Shown one piece after another: positions 11,801-22,607 of a DNA stretch of 64,000 nt; within the stretch, counting starts at the first letter, position 1, and the number at the start of each line of letters is the position of its first letter. The position numbers and the translations under genes were made by a program. The notes beneath the pieces were generated by a model. It ran no database searches and was not told where the DNA came from. It saw only the letters and a list, made by a program, of their open reading frames with translations. This DNA comes from a bacterium (GTDB taxonomy: Bacteria > Planctomycetota > Planctomycetia > Kolteriales > Kolteriaceae). Where the stretch lies: positions 1-64,000 of the forward strand of contig JAIELF010000011.1 of NCBI GenBank assembly GCA_019753235.1. The letters run 5' to 3'.

Positions 11801-12553
11801 TTATTGTCCAACGGAGAAACGTCTTGCTCGCAAATTAAGCAGCAAGAGGCTGGTCCCCGCCACGGCAAGCAGGACGTAAGAATTGGCCTCGGGAACGACC
11901 GAAAAGGTGTACGTACCCGTTCCCGTCACGATTCCGCCGCCGACGAGCGTGCCCGTCGCTCGCAATGTCACTTCGTATGTCCCAGGCGCGGTGAAGCCGT
12001 AATTGAAGTGATCGTGAATCCCGGTGAAGAAATTGAACGAGTCAGGCAATCCGTCCGATGATGCCGCCTTGAACGAAGGTCCTGGAAACGCGTCTTGAAA
12101 GATCGAGAAGAACCCGGGACCAACAACGTTATCGATCGAGAGCGTGATCGCGTTGCCTACAAACGTCCCGTTGGGAATTTCCTCTGTGGCGATGCCCAGA
12201 AACGGAAGTTGCTCAGCGGTCGCTTCGCCCGCACCTTGAGGAAGCTTGTAGTAGTCGACGCCCGCTGCAACACCAATCGGATCGAAGTTCAGGAATCCAC
12301 CAAAGTTCGCAGGCCGGGCTTCGAGAGCGCTCGGGGATACAACGATGATGACTTCGTCGGCTTCAAACTCCTCATCGTCGTACTCGACGCCGTCTATAGT
12401 CGCTCCTTCGGCGTGAATGTGAATATCGAAGGCGCCATCTTTGAAGCCGATACCGAGATCCGCATGCCCCTTGGTGTAAAGAGCCGCCGCCTCTGATCGG
12501 CTTGAAGAAAAAGCCAGCGCCATGCAGGCCAGAAAAGTCACAACAGATCGCAT
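11801..12553 (-). CDS. Choice-of-anchor M domain protein with PEP-CTERM-like tail
   Basis: The 250-residue exported protein has a signal peptide (MRSVVTFLACMALAFSSSRSEA) and then ALYTKGHADLGIGFKDGAFDIHIH, the opening of the choice-of-anchor M fold; HDHFNYGFTAPGTYEVTLRATG follows near the end. The C terminus is VVPEANSYVLLAVAGTSLLLL followed by Arg-rich RARRF, a PEP-CTERM-like sorting signal (Pro-Glu, hydrophobic helix, basic tail). It would be exported and held at the surface or processed by an exosortase. The gene at 14104 is a divergent paralogue with the same architecture. A 15-base tandem repeat sits over its ribosome site. Confidence 0.8.
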   Translation of the reverse strand: MRSVVTFLACMALAFSSSRSEAAALYTKGHADLGIGFKDGAFDIHIHAEGATIDGVEYDDEEFEADEVIIVVSPSALEARPANFGGFLNFDPIGVAAGVDYYKLPQGAGEATAEQLPFLGIATEEIPNGTFVGNAITLSIDNVVGPGFFSIFQDAFPGPSFKAASSDGLPDSFNFFTGIHDHFNYGFTAPGTYEVTLRATGTLVGGGIVTGTGTYTFSVVPEANSYVLLAVAGTSLLLLNLRARRFSVGQ

Positions 12554-14103: not shown

Positions 14104-14856
14104 ATGCGTCCCTTCGTGATCGCGATTTGTTTGTTCTTGGGGTGTGTTCGTCCGGGCGAAGCGGCCCGGGTCTATTCCGAGGGACATGCCGACATTGGCG
14201 TCCGATTCGTGGATGGCAAGCTTCAAGTCGGTTTGAACTTACTCGGAGCTGTCGTGGACGGAGCGAACGTTTCGGAATTCGCTCCCCTTTCGGACATCTT
14301 GCTTTTCGTGCCGGAAACGACGCTCGAAGATCGGCCGCCCAATGGGCCGGGACAAAACTTCGATCCGATCGGAGTGCCGACTGGATCGCCGATGTATCGT
14401 CTCTCGGCCTCGGGGACGGAGTCTTTCGTCAACGAAGCGCCGTACCTGGGTTTCGGCAGCTATCTGTTATCGAGCAGCGATTTCATCGGAAACGTCACCT
14501 TTCAACTCACCGGATTCTCTTCGAGCGAGGGGGGCGATCTTTCGATCTTTCAATACACGTTTCCGGGCCCGACCTATTATGTCACCACTGCCAACGGGCT
14601 GGGGCCCGCCGACTCCCTCACCCTATCTTTGGGGGCTCACGATCATTTCAATTGGGGGTTCACCAGGCCGGGCATGTATCGCATGGAGTGGACTGCCGAG
14701 GCGACACACCGGACGCTGGGGCGATTGACAGCGACCGGGACGATTTCGGCGGGGGTGACGACGGTCGTACCCGAAGTGTCGTCTTTGACCATGATCTTCG
14801 TCGCGATGCTCGCGGGGCTCTGCTCTTGCTATCGCCGTCCACACAAGATCGGTTGA
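14104..14856 (+). CDS. Choice-of-anchor M domain protein, paralogue of 11801-12553
   Basis: The 250-residue product has a signal peptide (IAICLFLGCVRPGEA) followed by ARVYSEGHADIGVRFVDGKLQV and, later, GAHDHFNWGFTRPGMYRMEW, matching the paralogue across its length. Both share the insert NFDPIG in mid-protein. The tail is VVPEVSSLTMIFVAMLAGL followed by CYRR, a PEP-CTERM-like anchor with a cysteine pair. AAAGG lies nine bases upstream of the ATG. The two copies flank the DUF1559 gene in opposite orientation. They have diverged a good deal, so the duplication is old. Confidence 0.8.
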   Translation: MRPFVIAICLFLGCVRPGEAARVYSEGHADIGVRFVDGKLQVGLNLLGAVVDGANVSEFAPLSDILLFVPETTLEDRPPNGPGQNFDPIGVPTGSPMYRLSASGTESFVNEAPYLGFGSYLLSSSDFIGNVTFQLTGFSSSEGGDLSIFQYTFPGPTYYVTTANGLGPADSLTLSLGAHDHFNWGFTRPGMYRMEWTAEATHRTLGRLTATGTISAGVTTVVPEVSSLTMIFVAMLAGLCSCYRRPHKIG

Positions 14857-14943: not shown

Positions 14944-15852
14944 TTACCGGATCAAGTCGTTCGTCGTCGATGGGTCGATGCGTGGGTCTTGTCCACGTAG
15001 GACGCTGTTCCCCATGAAGAGCGTCCGTTGATCGATGGGGGCGGGGCGAAGCCAATCTTCCTCTCGAATCTGTCCACTTTGTCCGTACGCGGCAAGCGCG
15101 TTGGCATAACAACTTGCGTGGACATCGCTCTCGGGGATGCCCCGCTCCAGCATCAGGCGAGCTGTCTTCGGGACGGCGAGAGGATCGGACACACCCCAGT
15201 CCGCCGACGAATCGACAATGATGCGGTTGCTGCCAAACTTTCGAACGACCTCCACCATCCGTTCGTTTCCCATCTTGGTCTTGGGATAGATGGTGAAGGC
15301 TGCCCAGTAACCTCGATCAAGTACCTCGCGCACGGTCTCTTCGTTGTTGTGATCGATGACGATTCTGCTCGGCGGAATGGAATGTTCTTCGCAGACATCC
15401 ATGCTCCGCGAGGTCCCTTCCTTTTTGTTTCGGTGCGGCGTGTGAATCATCACGGGCAAATCGAATTCTTCCGCCAGTGCCATCTGAGCGTGGAAGAATT
15501 TCTCCTCGGTCGATGTCATGTCATCGAAACCAATCTCACCGACGGCGACGACACCCTCTTTCCCGAGATAGAGAGGCAGTATGTCGATGACCTCTTGAGC
15601 GAGAGACTCGTTGTTGGCCTCTTTCGAGTTGAGGCCGATTGTGCAGTAATGCCGAATCCCGAACTGGGCCGCCCGAAATCGTTCAAAGCCAACCAGGCTT
15701 GAGTAGTAGTCCTGAAAAGTTCCAACACTCGTTCGAGGTTGTCCCAGCCAAAAGGCCGGCTCGATCACCGCCACCACGCCCGCTGCCGCCATTGCTTCGT
15801 AGTCGTCGGTGGTTCGGGCGCTCATGTGAATATGAGGATCGATGATTCGCAT
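14944..15852 (-). CDS. eboB: EboB-type TatD-family metal-dependent hydrolase
   Basis: The 302-residue amidohydrolase-fold enzyme starts MRIIDPHIHMSART (metal His at 7 and 9), then VGEIGFDD (bridging Glu), VMIHTPHR, RIVIDHNNEETV and VDSSADWG, so all metal ligands are there. The insertion pattern (FWLGQPRTSVGTFQDYY near residue 35) and the neighbour eboA point to the EboB branch rather than a general TatD nuclease. In cyanobacteria the Ebo set helps deliver scytonemin precursors to the periplasm; its reaction is not known. It follows eboA after 136 bases on the same strand. Confidence 0.82.
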   Translation of the reverse strand: MRIIDPHIHMSARTTDDYEAMAAAGVVAVIEPAFWLGQPRTSVGTFQDYYSSLVGFERFRAAQFGIRHYCTIGLNSKEANNESLAQEVIDILPLYLGKEGVVAVGEIGFDDMTSTEEKFFHAQMALAEEFDLPVMIHTPHRNKKEGTSRSMDVCEEHSIPPSRIVIDHNNEETVREVLDRGYWAAFTIYPKTKMGNERMVEVVRKFGSNRIIVDSSADWGVSDPLAVPKTARLMLERGIPESDVHASCYANALAAYGQSGQIREEDWLRPAPIDQRTLFMGNSVLRGQDPRIDPSTTNDLIR

Positions 15853-16882: not shown

Positions 16883-17194
16883 CTCTTTCTCCTATTGCGG
16901 ATATTCGCGACAGAAAAACCGAGGGTGATCTTACCCAAGAGACCAATTCGCCCGCGAATCCTGGCCTCTCGTATCCCCGGCAATCGTGCCATATTCTTGG
17001 AGCATCGACAGGTTGCCGATGCGCTGCCGAGACTTTCGGAATGAAACACCATCGCTCCTTGGGACTGTAATCTTTGGCTCACCTGACGGCAAGGAGTTGC
17101 CCTTGCGCGAACCTCTCCACAGGTGATTCGCTCTTCTTGATCCATAAAACAACCTGAAGAAACGTGGGTGACAAAAAGGGGCAGTTGGCACGTC
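16883..17194. other. Intergenic region between eboA and hisI
   Basis: 312 bases between divergent genes, so promoters for both are expected here. I see no convincing -35/-10 pair, hairpin or small gene. Open frames crossing it run into neighbouring genes in the wrong frame. Confidence 0.4.
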
Positions 17195-17662
17195 ATGGCC
17201 ATTGAATTCAAAGCACGCCAATCGGTCGAACAGGTCGAAGAGGGGAGCGAACTCGCTCCGAAGTTCGACGCGGATGGGCTCATTCCTGTCGTGACGACCG
17301 ATCACGAATCGGGCGAACTCCTAATGCATGCCTACATGAATGCCGAGGCCTTTCGGCGAACCATCGAACTCGGCGAAGCGGTCTACTGGAGCCGAAGCCG
17401 ACAGACTCTTTGGCACAAAGGGGCCACCAGCGGCCTGGTGCAAAAAGTGAAGGAAATCTTGATCGACGACGACCAAGATACAGTTTGGCTTCGTGTCGAT
17501 GTGCAGGGAGGCGCAAGCTGTCACGTTGGCTACCGATCTTGTTTTTATCGCAAGGTTCCCTTCGGACCTGAAGCGAACAAAGAACTTGTCTTCACCGAAA
17601 CGGAAAAGGTCTTCGATCCGCAAAAAGTCTACGGCGACGCCCCCAATCCTACCAAGCTGTAG
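17195..17662 (+). CDS. hisI: Phosphoribosyl-AMP cyclohydrolase
   Basis: Catalyses the third step of histidine synthesis, hydrolysing the adenine ring of PR-AMP. The 155-residue product contains [18 protein letters not shown], the core motif [17 protein letters not shown] and the metal-binding [13 protein letters not shown]. The family usually has W-x-KGE; here it is WHKGA. It is the cyclohydrolase domain only, with no HisE domain. The ATG at 17195 gives a normal N terminus, with AAAAAGGGG 14 bases upstream; a GTG at 17168 is an alternative. It stands apart from other his genes. Confidence 0.93.
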
Positions 17663-17677
17663 TGGAGGGAAGCGAAG

Positions 17678-19087
17678 TCAATCATTGACGTGGTAGGGGA
17701 GAGTCTGGCGAGCGAGCGGTCTAGTCGATGTTGGGGTTCCTTGGATTGTTGCGGTCGTCGCGGCGTACGCGCCGTGACGAACAATCACCACGTCGACCTG
17801 CTTGGCCACGTTCGGCGTGGACGAACGATTGGGATCTGCGCACGTACCAGATCTCTGATTTGTTTTCACGTCGTGCCTATGCTTGAAGTGGTTCGATCCT
17901 GGAGCAACGCATTGCACATCTGAAAGAGAATGATTCGGAGTGATCACTGTCTGACCGGTTTTTTCCTCGATTGCCTTGATGAGTAAAAGGGCGACAAGGC
18001 GGTTGAGGGCGTAGCACCTGTCGAAATGATCGCACTCCATGATCAAGTCGATCGTCGGTAAATCTGAGCGAAGCATTTGCTTGACGGCGTTCTTTAGAGC
18101 GGGATCTGCAAGAACGTTGTCGGCCAGTTCGTTTGTTTGCTTATGCATCCAGTCAAGAAGTGGATGGTCGTGCCTTTTTTCTCCTCCAATGGCGTACGCT
18201 CGCTGGCATTGGTCATCGAGGCTGTAAAGCTTCATTTCAATGGTGGAAAAGAAAGAAGGATCGGCGGATTTGATCGCGAGATAAACTTCTTTTGCCGTGT
18301 CTCTGCTTGTGGCCATCCGGATGAAATCCTGCAAGGCGCCGTCGCCGGCGCCCGAGATCACCGCAGTTGCCGGCGAACTGCTCGTTCCAAGGTGCAAGTC
18401 GGTGATGGAGTCTCTCGACCAAAAATTTGGTCCAGAATATTTCGCGATGTTTGTTCGTTCCGCTGCGATGCCGACGCAGTTGATGGCCATTCCAAAGTCT
18501 AACGGCCACAGAAAGGACTGCATGGTTTGGCCTTTGGTGATCGGAGCCGGAGCGACCGTAGCTTGAATCTTCTTGTCCGACGTCACATTGTAAGACGTTA
18601 CCTTGTGGCTTGGCGAAAAATGGAGGAGGCCATTCGCGGATCGAATCGCGGCATTGAGTTCCTTTCGCCAATCGGCAACAAGAAAATTACCAAAACCTTT
18701 CAGGTAAGTAAGTGGCATCGGCGGCGTACCAAGAGGTGGGAAACAACCCGCGTCCCAACCATCTCTCGGGAAGTCGTATTGAACCGGATCGACGTACCGA
18801 GTGAAGGCTTGGGCTTGAGCCACGAAAGCGTCGACCTCGCGTTCCAGAATCACTGTCTTGACTTTAAAGTCGACCGCTGCACGAATGGCTGCGGAAACAC
18901 CACCCGCGCCAGCACCAACAACGAGAAGATTCTTATCTTTATCGTTGATCAGTCCGTTTTCGAAACCACGGTCAACAAGCTTTCGCCCACGAATCATTTG
19001 ATCTCTGATCGAGATTGGATACTGGATGCCGGCGGTGTCAAATATGTTGTCGCGGAGATGATGAATGGAGAGAAACGGATCGACCAT
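17678..19087 (-). CDS. Two-Rossmann (FAD/NAD(P)-binding) protein of unknown function
   Basis: The 469-residue protein has a dinucleotide-binding start LLVVGAGAGGVSAAIRAA (GxGxxG at 58-63) with an acidic residue after the second strand (VILERE). A motif RYVDPVQYDFPRDGW (97-111) follows, then a second glycine-rich loop VISGAGDGALQDFIRMAT (243-260) and a C-terminal strand VVIVRHGA (433-440). The layout suits a flavin- or NAD-dependent protein, but I cannot name a characterised family. There is no signal peptide or membrane helix. Base composition is clearly more AT-rich than hisI or the gene at 20265. It follows the unknown gene at 19234 after 146 bases, probably as one transcript. Convergent with hisI, 15 bases between stops. 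Confidence 0.78.
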   Translation of the reverse strand: MVDPFLSIHHLRDNIFDTAGIQYPISIRDQMIRGRKLVDRGFENGLINDKDKNLLVVGAGAGGVSAAIRAAVDFKVKTVILEREVDAFVAQAQAFTRYVDPVQYDFPRDGWDAGCFPPLGTPPMPLTYLKGFGNFLVADWRKELNAAIRSANGLLHFSPSHKVTSYNVTSDKKIQATVAPAPITKGQTMQSFLWPLDFGMAINCVGIAAERTNIAKYSGPNFWSRDSITDLHLGTSSSPATAVISGAGDGALQDFIRMATSRDTAKEVYLAIKSADPSFFSTIEMKLYSLDDQCQRAYAIGGEKRHDHPLLDWMHKQTNELADNVLADPALKNAVKQMLRSDLPTIDLIMECDHFDRCYALNRLVALLLIKAIEEKTGQTVITPNHSLSDVQCVAPGSNHFKHRHDVKTNQRSGTCADPNRSSTPNVAKQVDVVIVRHGAYAATTATIQGTPTSTRPLARQTLPYHVND

Positions 19088-19233
19088 GGCGAATCATCCA
19101 GAGTTCACTCAGTAACGAAAAGGAATTGGTACAAGATGACACCCTCGAAATCAAAATATTTTCCTAATCAATGCGGTTTCACGGATGGTTGGCGACATCA
19201 TCGCCGGAGGACGGGACCTAGAAACGGAATGAC

Positions 19234-19881
19234 TTAACTCGATGGGCTCTTTGCTTCATCGGTGGGTTTGGCATCTTTATTCCAAATCGCTTCGAGCTCG
19301 TCTTTGCTCATCGTTGTTACTGCATCGGTCGGTTCGCTCGAACAACGAACAGGTAGTTTAGGCTGAACGCCTTGGGCTTGAATATCTGCGATCTCCGTTT
19401 CCCGCTGACCGAGTTGTTCGGCCAGGCGTTTGATGACTCCACGGCAGTCCAACTCCTTCAAGTCACTGTCAGAGGCAGGAAAGAAGATGGCGCCCCGTTG
19501 GATGGCGAGTGACAAACAATCGTCATCGATCTTGCGATGATCGCCAGTGAGATAAATGGCTGGCCGAATCGCTGTCCCGTCCATCCGCTGTTGACGACGA
19601 TTGATGAGCGTCTTCATCATGTCGCAAACGGACGGGATGACGTCTTGATCAACAAAGAGAACAACTTTGCTCGGTTGCTCTCTATTTAAAGCCTTTATCA
19701 ACATTCTTGCCGGAAGCTGGACGATTTCGAAGGTCTGATGAGGAGTCTGGATCCCGGCGAGGATTTTCTCGGTGGTCGGTGGCGGGTCTTGTTGCAGACC
19801 TCCCGTGTGCACCGGCTGCGGCAAGGCAGTGGGTTCGGTGAGAATGAGTCCCAGTATTTTGTTGAGGCGTCTCTCCGGCAT
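19234..19881 (-). CDS. Hypothetical protein, partner of the Rossmann protein
   Basis: I do not recognise this 215-residue protein. The middle (about 70-160) reads like an alpha/beta domain: KVVLFVDQDVIPSVCDMMKTL, RPAIYLTGDHRKIDDD, GAIFFPASDSDLKELDCRGVI. The first strand VVLFVDQD recalls a receiver, but the spacing does not fit one well. The N terminus and the tail (TTMSKDELEAIW then Lys/Ser-rich) look flexible. It heads the AT-richer two-gene unit; a perfect 18-base palindrome lies 27-44 bases upstream of its ATG. The ribosome site is weak, so the start is uncertain. Confidence 0.6.
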   Translation of the reverse strand: MPERRLNKILGLILTEPTALPQPVHTGGLQQDPPPTTEKILAGIQTPHQTFEIVQLPARMLIKALNREQPSKVVLFVDQDVIPSVCDMMKTLINRRQQRMDGTAIRPAIYLTGDHRKIDDDCLSLAIQRGAIFFPASDSDLKELDCRGVIKRLAEQLGQRETEIADIQAQGVQPKLPVRCSSEPTDAVTTMSKDELEAIWNKDAKPTDEAKSPSS

Positions 19882-20264
19882 AAGGCAGTTAACCTATTGA
19901 GATTCAGTTGCCACTCAAGTGGCAAGGTGAGCAATATTGCGGGTCGACCTAAAATGGTCAACCTCAAGCTTTCCTTGTTCAAGGGTATCGTCAATTTTCG
20001 AGGAAGGCTATCAAAGGATTCTCGTAGTTTCAAGCGTGCCCGCCCTGACGACGGCAACCGAATTGGAATGGTCGTCGTTTTCGGCTGTTTCGACCCAACT
20101 TACCCAAGACCACTTGCCCACAATCGCGGCGAAATCGGCAAATGGTTTCCGTAAGACTCGTTCCGCAAATCGAGAAATGGCGTTCTACGAGGAGCGAAGG
20201 TGGGTCGGCGAATACTGGCGCGAACTCTCATCGCAAATCGCTTGACACTCTGTGGACGCGAAAT
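19882..20264. other. Intergenic region upstream of the island
   Basis: 383 bases between the island and the end of the GT-C gene. It holds the palindrome described separately. Open frames here are short, overlap each other on both strands and lack ribosome sites; I see no gene. Confidence 0.4.
19908..19925. promoter_or_regulatory. Perfect palindrome, putative operator
   Basis: TTGCCACT and AGTGGCAA flank a two-base centre, making an 18-base site with exact dyad symmetry. The two-base centre is too tight for an RNA hairpin loop, so a protein-binding operator is the better reading. It sits 27-44 bases upstream of the gene at 19881, where a promoter would be expected. Confidence 0.45.
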
Positions 20265-22418
20265 CTACTCCTCTGACAGTCGAATCTCTGGGGCTATGAA
20301 AGGTTGGTGGTGGGTGTAGAGTTCGCGACGCTGCTGAATCTGCCTGGCCAGTTTATCGTCGGCCAGTTCACGAGATCGGCTCTCGGCTTGGCTGGCAACC
20401 TTGACGGCCTCTTCAAAAAAACCATTGGCCGCCAGTGCTGCTGCTAGGAGATCCAGATCAGAGGGCGTGACCGGACCTTGCCGAACGGTCAACTCGCGAG
20501 CCAGTTGGAGAGCTCGCTTCGCATGGCGAACCTCCGCCGGTCGAGCGCTTGCGAGAATCCACGCCAGTCTCCTTTTCGCGGCCCGGAATCCGCCATCGCG
20601 CCGAAGGAGCTCTTCATAGTGTCCGATGGCACGCGAGTACTCGCCGAACTGCTCTTCTATCTGGGCGATCGCCAACAAATCTTTGGGTGGATCAAGATCG
20701 TCGCCGACCGCCTCTTCGAGCAGACCAAGTGATGCACGATCAGGCTGAATCAGAATCCGTAGCCTTGCGACGTTCAAGCGATCCATCTCGGCATTCGAAC
20801 TGATCTGCGCCAGTCGCTCGGCCAGCGGCAGTGCCAGGCGATAGTCACGATCGCGTACGTGGATGGCCATAATCTTCTCGCAGGCCGAACGGTTGGCAGG
20901 CTCAAACGTGAGCACCTTTTCCAGATCCTCGATGGCAAGATTCTTTGAACCACTTTTGAGATAAGCTGCCGCCCGGTTGACGTATGCTTGAGTCAGCTTA
21001 GGAGCGTTTTCGATGGCTTTGGACGCACTCTCGATCGCTTCTGAATGATGGCCGACTTGAAGGAGAAGTGCCGACCGATTGCACCAAAAGGGACCACTCC
21101 GATCGTTGATCGCGAGGGCACGGTCGATGAGAGCCTCATCCGAAGACCAATGTTGGATCTGGTTCCATGTGGTTGCCGAGAGAGCGATCCCCAAGATCGG
21201 CCAGCTCAGTCCAAATAGCCGGGGCCAGCGCCGACAAAGCAGACCAAACGCAAGCGACAAAGCGATCATGGGAGAAAGAGCGTATCGGTCCGCAACGGTC
21301 GATATCTCCTGGAAGCCAAACGGGACCAGACCCAACATCGGCAAAAGGGCGGCAACATAAAGCATCACGCAGCAGAGAGCCGACCGACCACCAACGAGTC
21401 CTAGAAGAAGTAGCCCAGCCACCAAAAAAAAGTAGCCCGCGAAAACGTTCCGAACATCGCCGGCACGCAAGGAGGTAAAGAAGTTCTTTGTGGGCTCGGA
21501 GATAAGCGAGAGAACGAAAGAAGGATGTCGACCGTAATCGGGACCAAGGTCGCGCGGAGCCATCGCTAAGGGAAGATATGTTCCGAGCGCATCGAGCGCG
21601 ATCAGAGGGCGATCGACAGGAGCGACCTCGACACGAGAGACAGGTGCTTGCGCATAAGCGGTGATCGCCACGAAAGCAGCACCGAGGATGATCCACGGGC
21701 CCAGATAACGGATCACCTGCATGATCGGCCTTCGAAACCAGATGACATCAATGACCATCGCCATGAAGGGGATCGCGACGCTCCAAGGCTTGGCGAGAAG
21801 TGACAATAGATACAGCATCTGAGCCAGCGCGAACTGTCTTGATGATGTCGTGGGGGTGGCCATCGCGTCGAGGTGCCCATTGATTGCCCAAACTCCCAGC
21901 GCGAGCGCGAGGAGCCCCTTGGCTTCGCTCACCCATGCCACCGACTCGACGTGCAGCGGATGAACCAGCCAAAGAAGAGTTCCGGCCAATGGTGCCGACC
22001 CGATCGGAATGGATGGAAGAATCGACGATGTCCCAAGCATGCGACTCAACAGCCCGTAGACCGCCGTCGCCGACACCCAAAACAGAAGCAGATTGCCGGC
22101 ATGATAGATCGCGGGGCTCGGTTGAGTTTGAAAGAGCCCCAGGAGCAACCACCAAGTGTAAGTGAGGGGCATGTAGATACCGGCATGACCTTCGAGCCAG
22201 ATCTTCCGCAGGCCGGCAATGCTGGAGGGGTGTAGGTGCGGGTTGTCGACGATCAGAACCTGGTCGTCCCACTGCAACAACGGGAACGTCAGCACCCGGC
22301 CATACAGAACCAAAATGACAAGCAGAAAGAGAGTCGATGGCCAGACGAGCGACCGCCAAGCAAATCGGCTGGGCGTGGCCGGCACCGGGGGGAATGTCAT
22401 CATAGTCTCGGCCGGCAA
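20265..22418 (-). CDS. Multi-pass GT-C-like membrane protein with C-terminal TPR repeats
   Basis: The 717-residue protein begins with a membrane helix and the loop FPLLQWDDQVLIVDNPHL, the acidic first-loop motif (WDD) of GT-C/protein O-mannosyltransferase-like enzymes. About ten membrane spans follow to about residue 430. From there TPR units run to the end (SALLLQVGHHSEAIESASKAIENAP, AYLKSGSKNLAIEDLEKVL, FGEYSRAIGHYEEL). This resembles TMTC-like bacterial proteins that would transfer sugars outside the membrane; substrate and acceptor are unknown. AAAGGAATTCGATGG-like sequence precedes it, with no strong Shine-Dalgarno. Confidence 0.8.
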   Translation of the reverse strand: MPAETMMTFPPVPATPSRFAWRSLVWPSTLFLLVILVLYGRVLTFPLLQWDDQVLIVDNPHLHPSSIAGLRKIWLEGHAGIYMPLTYTWWLLLGLFQTQPSPAIYHAGNLLLFWVSATAVYGLLSRMLGTSSILPSIPIGSAPLAGTLLWLVHPLHVESVAWVSEAKGLLALALGVWAINGHLDAMATPTTSSRQFALAQMLYLLSLLAKPWSVAIPFMAMVIDVIWFRRPIMQVIRYLGPWIILGAAFVAITAYAQAPVSRVEVAPVDRPLIALDALGTYLPLAMAPRDLGPDYGRHPSFVLSLISEPTKNFFTSLRAGDVRNVFAGYFFLVAGLLLLGLVGGRSALCCVMLYVAALLPMLGLVPFGFQEISTVADRYALSPMIALSLAFGLLCRRWPRLFGLSWPILGIALSATTWNQIQHWSSDEALIDRALAINDRSGPFWCNRSALLLQVGHHSEAIESASKAIENAPKLTQAYVNRAAAYLKSGSKNLAIEDLEKVLTFEPANRSACEKIMAIHVRDRDYRLALPLAERLAQISSNAEMDRLNVARLRILIQPDRASLGLLEEAVGDDLDPPKDLLAIAQIEEQFGEYSRAIGHYEELLRRDGGFRAAKRRLAWILASARPAEVRHAKRALQLARELTVRQGPVTPSDLDLLAAALAANGFFEEAVKVASQAESRSRELADDKLARQIQQRRELYTHHQPFIAPEIRLSEE

Positions 22419-22607
22419 AGGAATTCGATGGAGACCGCTTCAACGCCTCCTCGACGGAAATGAACCGTCGTTCCCATATACTACACAACGGTTTGCGAGA
22501 AAACCTCGGCGATCTGGTCGGTGGCGGTCGACCGTCGGGGCCACCCGTCCGCTCGCGGTGTTCGCGACCGGTGGTGGTTTGCCGATCGGATGAGGGGAGA
22601 TTCTTCG

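Follow-up and report, generated by a model that had tools for sequence, protein, structure and literature searches.

A candidate horizontally acquired conflict module in a planctomycete that couples a stand-alone homologue of a Lamassu FAD effector with a small upstream partner

Within a 64-kb stretch of planctomycete DNA, which we refer to as the window, two consecutive minus-strand genes, designated here gene A and gene B, appear on balance to form a two-gene biological-conflict module that was acquired horizontally and is most likely directed against phages, and in which gene A would act as a redox effector and gene B as its regulator or sensor. This reading draws on sequence comparisons that place gene A in a family containing a known immune effector, reveal a recurrent partner gene upstream of its relatives, and uncover atypical base composition, an empty syntenic site in a related genome and defence genes in the neighbourhoods of several relatives. 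The features discussed below are as follows.

17678 to 19087, minus strand: gene A, encoding a 469-aa FAD/double-Rossmann protein from the family that includes the N-terminal effector of one LmuA kind
19234 to 19881, minus strand: gene B, encoding a 215-aa partner, upstream of gene A and outside any known family
19908 to 19925, no strand assigned: inverted repeat (8+2+8), TTGCCACT-CA-AGTGGCAA, upstream of gene B
17663 to 22520, no strand assigned: segment that differs from the syntenic site, between hisI and a DAHP-synthase-like gene, holding gene A, gene B and a TPR gene (20265-22418)

Both open reading frames proposed in the first-pass annotation of this DNA are present, with gene B upstream of gene A and 146 nt between them, and the glycine-rich loops of gene A (GAGAGG, residues 58-63; GAGDGA, residues 246-251) and its RYVDPVQYD stretch (residues 97-105) lie exactly where they had been located. 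The same annotation described the DNA as clearly more AT-rich than hisI and the gene at 20265. The pair is indeed AT-richer: its GC values are 0.523 and 0.530, where the 46 predicted genes of the window average 0.571 (SD 0.024), and its GC3 values (0.569 and 0.572) are the two lowest of the set. 'Clearly' is nevertheless too strong a word for a difference of roughly 4 GC points. Codon usage does not resemble that of the flanks: the two genes are the most deviant of the 46 (z of -4.65 and -3.56), followed by the gene at 20265 (z of -3.13). What had been reported as a perfect 18-base palindrome upstream of gene B, TTGCCACTCAAGTGGCAA, consists instead of two 8-bp arms around a non-palindromic CA centre that breaks the symmetry, and perfect palindromes of 14, 16 or 18 bases are absent from positions 17000-20600. 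This repeat is a possible operator, but it may be a chance occurrence, since 16 inverted repeats of the same kind (8-bp arms, spacer of 0-4) are found in the window.

Gene A is rare amongst planctomycetes: a search of 58 other genomes taken as close relatives did not find it, and only two other genomes of the 391 in the phylum have it. In a genome of the same family and a different genus, gene order is retained for the counterparts of the genes at 14944, 15989, hisI, 22521, 23675 and 25055, and the interval between hisI and the homologue of the gene at 22521 contains only an unrelated 137-aa ORF, the pair being absent. In the tree of the gene A family, phyla are intermixed on long branches with limited support, and stand-alone members form deep clades. 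The deviant codon usage, rarity in the phylum, empty syntenic site and phylum-mixing tree all bear out the earlier suggestion of transfer, and from these sequence data horizontal acquisition of the pair can be considered well supported. The adjoining minus-strand gene at 20265-22418, encoding a TPR membrane protein, is likewise missing from the syntenic site and may have arrived with the pair or independently; two paralogues with ~35% identity to it lie together on another contig (C43) of the same genome. Elsewhere in the window, paralogous genes in opposite orientations at 11801-12553 (minus strand) and 14104-14856 (plus strand) encode 250-aa secreted-looking proteins (YTKGHADLGIGF and YSEGHADIGVRF, respectively) and flank a gene for a DUF1559-like pseudopilin.

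Lamassu systems combine LmuB, an SMC/Rad50-like ATPase encoded beside the effector, with LmuC in most cases and with an effector, LmuA, that carries a C-terminal docking domain. Searches of Pfam and NCBIfam with gene A returned only FAD-loop matches below threshold, and gene B matched no family in Pfam, NCBIfam or PADLOC, in agreement with the first-pass view that neither gene has a recognisable housekeeping role. The PADLOC LmuA model PDLC03858, by comparison, matched residues 30-409 of gene A with an E-value of 9.7e-22 over profile positions 34-389 of 827. A double-Rossmann dehydrogenase domain is named among the LmuA effectors in a review of SMC-based immunity (PMC10586767). When the LmuA model was searched against eight genomes containing relatives of gene A, the best match was a member of the gene A family in every one, and a search of a second phylum gave two high-scoring proteins, L050 and L051 (842 and 841 bits). 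The L050 LmuA gene is adjacent to genes for LmuC (E = 1e-74) and LmuB (E = 0), and the same three-gene layout is seen by eye for L051. The N-terminal halves of these LmuA proteins have in common with gene A the residues G58xG60xxG63, R97, P107, G206, E210, W223, GxGDG, D254 and RxG, all drawn from the invariant set of its family. Pairwise BLAST between gene A and LmuA proteins of this type is weak (E = 0.002). A reciprocal profile built from the stand-alone family nonetheless recovers both LmuA genes, with E-values of 1.2e-22 and 3.1e-23; no other flavoprotein of those genomes scores better than ~1e-8. The LmuA match, the common invariant residues and a reciprocal profile score above that of ordinary flavoproteins together indicate homology, and by these sequence criteria gene A belongs to one family with the N-terminal FAD/double-Rossmann effector of one kind of LmuA.

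The pair is not itself a Lamassu system, since three components are missing from the window. No LmuB is encoded near the pair, the best match in the same genome being one of 23 bits on contig C23 with a model that also finds matches in 13 of 14 control genomes. The LmuA C-terminal domain is lacking from gene A, in which the match stops at position 389 of the 827-position profile and the protein ends at 469 aa. Nor was LmuC found at the pair: gene B is hit by none of the PADLOC models, and nothing else adjoining gene A is a candidate. The pair resembles Lamassu/ABC-3C systems with a double-Rossmann LmuA in its homologous effector and the invariant residues of that effector, but differs from them in having a small, unrelated-looking upstream gene in place of LmuB and LmuC. 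Two further variants of the LmuA FAD domain were observed with LmuB not in view: a form with a long C-terminal extension, GAF-like by eye (L052:5722-7875), and a 533-aa form (L053:5680-7281) whose neighbours are protease-like and PIN-like by eye, neither of which matches a PADLOC model.

About thirty relatives of gene A were collected from six phyla (Planctomycetota, Pseudomonadota, Acidobacteriota, Myxococcota, Actinomycetota and Vulcanimicrobiota). An alignment of 29 members contains ~40 conserved positions, amongst which the invariant or nearly invariant residues are S26, D29, R33, G58xG60xxG63, R97, Y104 and P107 in the N-terminal part, G206, E210, W223, G246xG248-D249-G250-A-L-Q-D254 and R257 in the middle, and Y359, N362 and R437-x-G439 in the C-terminal part; P464, near the C-terminus, is also conserved. 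Over the RYVDPVQYD stretch the family consensus is R97-x3-P101-x2-Y104-x-W106-P107. No relatives were detected by sequence in viral and phage collections. Two significant structural matches in BFVD, both to Lactococcus phage proteins, have 9-11% identity and fail every sequence test of membership, and were rejected.

Gene B has no credible relatives in the 391 planctomycete genomes; the sole match in the phylum, which by eye lies within translation initiation factor IF-2, was taken as chance. Its structure model is unusable (pLDDT 41.5), and we suspect, by eye only, that the protein has an alpha/beta core. A pattern reminiscent of a response-regulator receiver was also seen by eye, with no match in Pfam or the PDB and with a structure model too poor to bear on it either way. 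The case for gene B as a partner comes from comparison of loci. Of 26 loci tabulated, 24 have a short ORF on the same strand whose end falls somewhere from 11 nt into the FAD gene to 41 nt ahead of it; the 146-nt gap in the window is the largest among all loci. Around 31 loci the FAD gene alone is a widespread recurrent feature among the ORFs, and at the BLAST threshold used the gene directly upstream is common to groups of two or three loci. A more sensitive comparison unites all proteobacterial upstream genes, whose products are homologous to one another; they carry a linker rich in Gly and Pro and terminate in a conserved stretch of the type EVLxHPxLFSxxxxDF, which the partner at L034 has as well. 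Amongst the partners in the clade of the window gene, no similarity to each other is detectable by sequence comparison, and gene B matches none of the partners at other loci. A candidate C-terminal motif common to the window-type partners was dropped, since its leave-one-out score of 84.1 was not significant against shuffled sequences (76.6, SD 4.5, maximum 88.7). Gene B does have the position characteristic of these partners, being short, on the same strand and directly upstream of the FAD gene, and because it is without detectable relatives its assignment rests on position, orientation and atypical composition. Neither of the two findings that the first-pass annotation had named as grounds for rejecting its view was obtained: homologues lie repeatedly beside a short upstream gene, and the codon usage of the pair departs from that of the flanks.

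The neighbourhoods of several relatives contain profile-verified defence genes. These comprise a CBASS cyclase and endonuclease effector (L009), Shango SngA and SngB (L014), a ThsB-type TIR with TIR_2 and SLOG (L035), an Eco29kI restriction enzyme with a cytosine methylase (L027), Avs1c with a Mokosh-like helicase (L006) and an AriA/OLD-like ATPase (L007); an integrase (L017) and a serine recombinase (L029) were verified in the same way. Seventy-six ORFs from eight loci gave matches to 70 PADLOC models (E<1e-20), compared with only two models, of ATPase type, for 101 ORFs from seven regions drawn at random from those genomes. Counted by locus, defence neighbours are present at four of the eight loci and at none of the seven random regions; with so small a sample this enrichment is a hint and not strong evidence. 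The choice of the eight loci followed an inspection of their gene lists by eye, and three of them, L023, L030 and L031 (the last from Massilia), looked ordinary. An eighth random region (L088) was excluded from the control because its genes had the appearance of a prophage or of a cluster of short, ribosomal-type genes. Neighbours are ordinary at about half of the relatives, and no defence genes lie near the pair in the window. NurA and HerA, noted by eye beside L017, were matched by no PADLOC model.

Three of these neighbourhoods merit description. In the nearest relative pair, from a member of the Blastocatellia (L012:9739-17464), the downstream ATPase gene, at first considered OLD-type, is called IetA-like by PADLOC, and contractile tail-sheath-like genes are visible by eye. 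On a plasmid of Undibacterium (L006:8240-11108), the same strand continues beyond the partner and FAD gene with a 112-aa ORF and the Avs1c homologue, and no Avs1 ATPase is evident beside that homologue. In Variovorax (L035:5389-11621), genes for SLOG, a ThsB-type TIR, the small partner, the FAD protein, a TIR_2 protein and another protein form a row that looks like a composite nucleotide-signalling immunity locus. The pair at this locus shares a same-strand row with genes typical of TIR/SLOG nucleotide-signalling conflict operons, but the likeness is one of neighbourhood at one locus, and TIR and SLOG genes are absent near the pair in the window.

The first-pass annotation had raised the possibility of a small redox or defence module. 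Homology to the LmuA effector and the defence neighbours of relatives strengthen that proposal as far as gene A is concerned, in which the defensive role itself is still something we infer. We envisage gene A as a free-standing version of the N-terminal FAD-binding double-Rossmann effector of LmuA, with gene B replacing LmuB and LmuC as a fast-diversifying partner that would interact with gene A to keep it inactive, sense infection, or both. On infection, gene B would release or activate gene A, whose presumed flavin chemistry (NAD(P)H oxidation, with loss of cofactor or production of peroxide) would bring the cell to a stop. We also propose, more tentatively, that a stand-alone FAD enzyme with a hypervariable upstream partner represents a distinct, undescribed anti-phage type in which exchangeable small partners, which in one clade have a linker rich in Gly and a conserved tail of LxHPxLF type, replace the SMC complex.

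A less probable interpretation is that the two genes form a mobile toxin-antitoxin-like pair, with gene B as an antitoxin that masks gene A, maintained as an addiction module and not for phage defence. The small size, frequent overlap and fast evolution of the upstream gene would fit such an arrangement, as would the conserved short C-terminal tail of one clade's partners, which is suited to docking, and the mobile-element neighbours at some loci. However, homologues of gene A serve as effectors in an established immune system and, to our knowledge, no toxin-antitoxin pair with a flavoenzyme toxin is on record. This interpretation overlaps with that of a defence module, and sequence cannot separate the two.

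It is also rather improbable that gene A is an ordinary accessory redox enzyme, for instance an N-hydroxylase or a relative of ferredoxin or thiol reductases, that spread with a small accessory protein for metabolic reasons. The AlphaFold2 model (pLDDT 88, pTM 0.89, from a 25-row alignment) finds as its best solved folds in Foldseek ferredoxin-NADP+ reductase (FNR), thioredoxin reductase, flavin-containing monooxygenase (FMO), cyclohexanone monooxygenase and the SidA ornithine hydroxylase, at E-values of 1e-8 to 1e-7 and low TM-scores of 0.21-0.40 by query length, and several loci have housekeeping neighbours. Gene A resembles these enzymes in having a fold with two dinucleotide-binding loops, but the CxxC of thioredoxin reductases is missing from gene A and from 27 of the 29 family members, the FMO motif FxGxxxHxxx(F/Y/K) occurs in none of the 29, and the model has a long helical run (residues 249-338) after the second loop, so that classical NAD(P)H binding is not to be assumed there. 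Moreover, the 31 loci have no recurrent biosynthetic neighbour, and the similarity to LmuA is specific and exceeds that to ordinary flavoproteins.

Decay of a Lamassu locus, with loss of LmuB, LmuC and the C-terminal domain of LmuA, would account for an alignment confined to the N-terminal half of the LmuA model and for the want of a convincing LmuB, but is very improbable, since stand-alone relatives of the same length class (440-530 aa) occur in many phyla and in deep clades of their own, and this equal length, together with the conserved C-terminal R437-x-G439 and P464, shows gene A to be an intact member of its family.

The FAD effector domain of Lamassu is known, whereas its stand-alone two-gene form is, as far as the literature searched is concerned, undescribed: apart from the review that names the double-Rossmann dehydrogenase effector (PMC10586767), we found no description of an FAD/FMO-type Lamassu or of a receiver/FAD defence pair. 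The only PADLOC model covering this FAD domain is that of LmuA, so that annotation with it would overlook the stand-alone form or give it the wrong label. Should the pair prove protective, it would demonstrate that a single small partner can run a redox effector, and it would offer both a minimal two-gene system for learning how the flavoenzyme acts on the cell and a case in which to study the exchange of sensors by immune systems whose effector stays the same.
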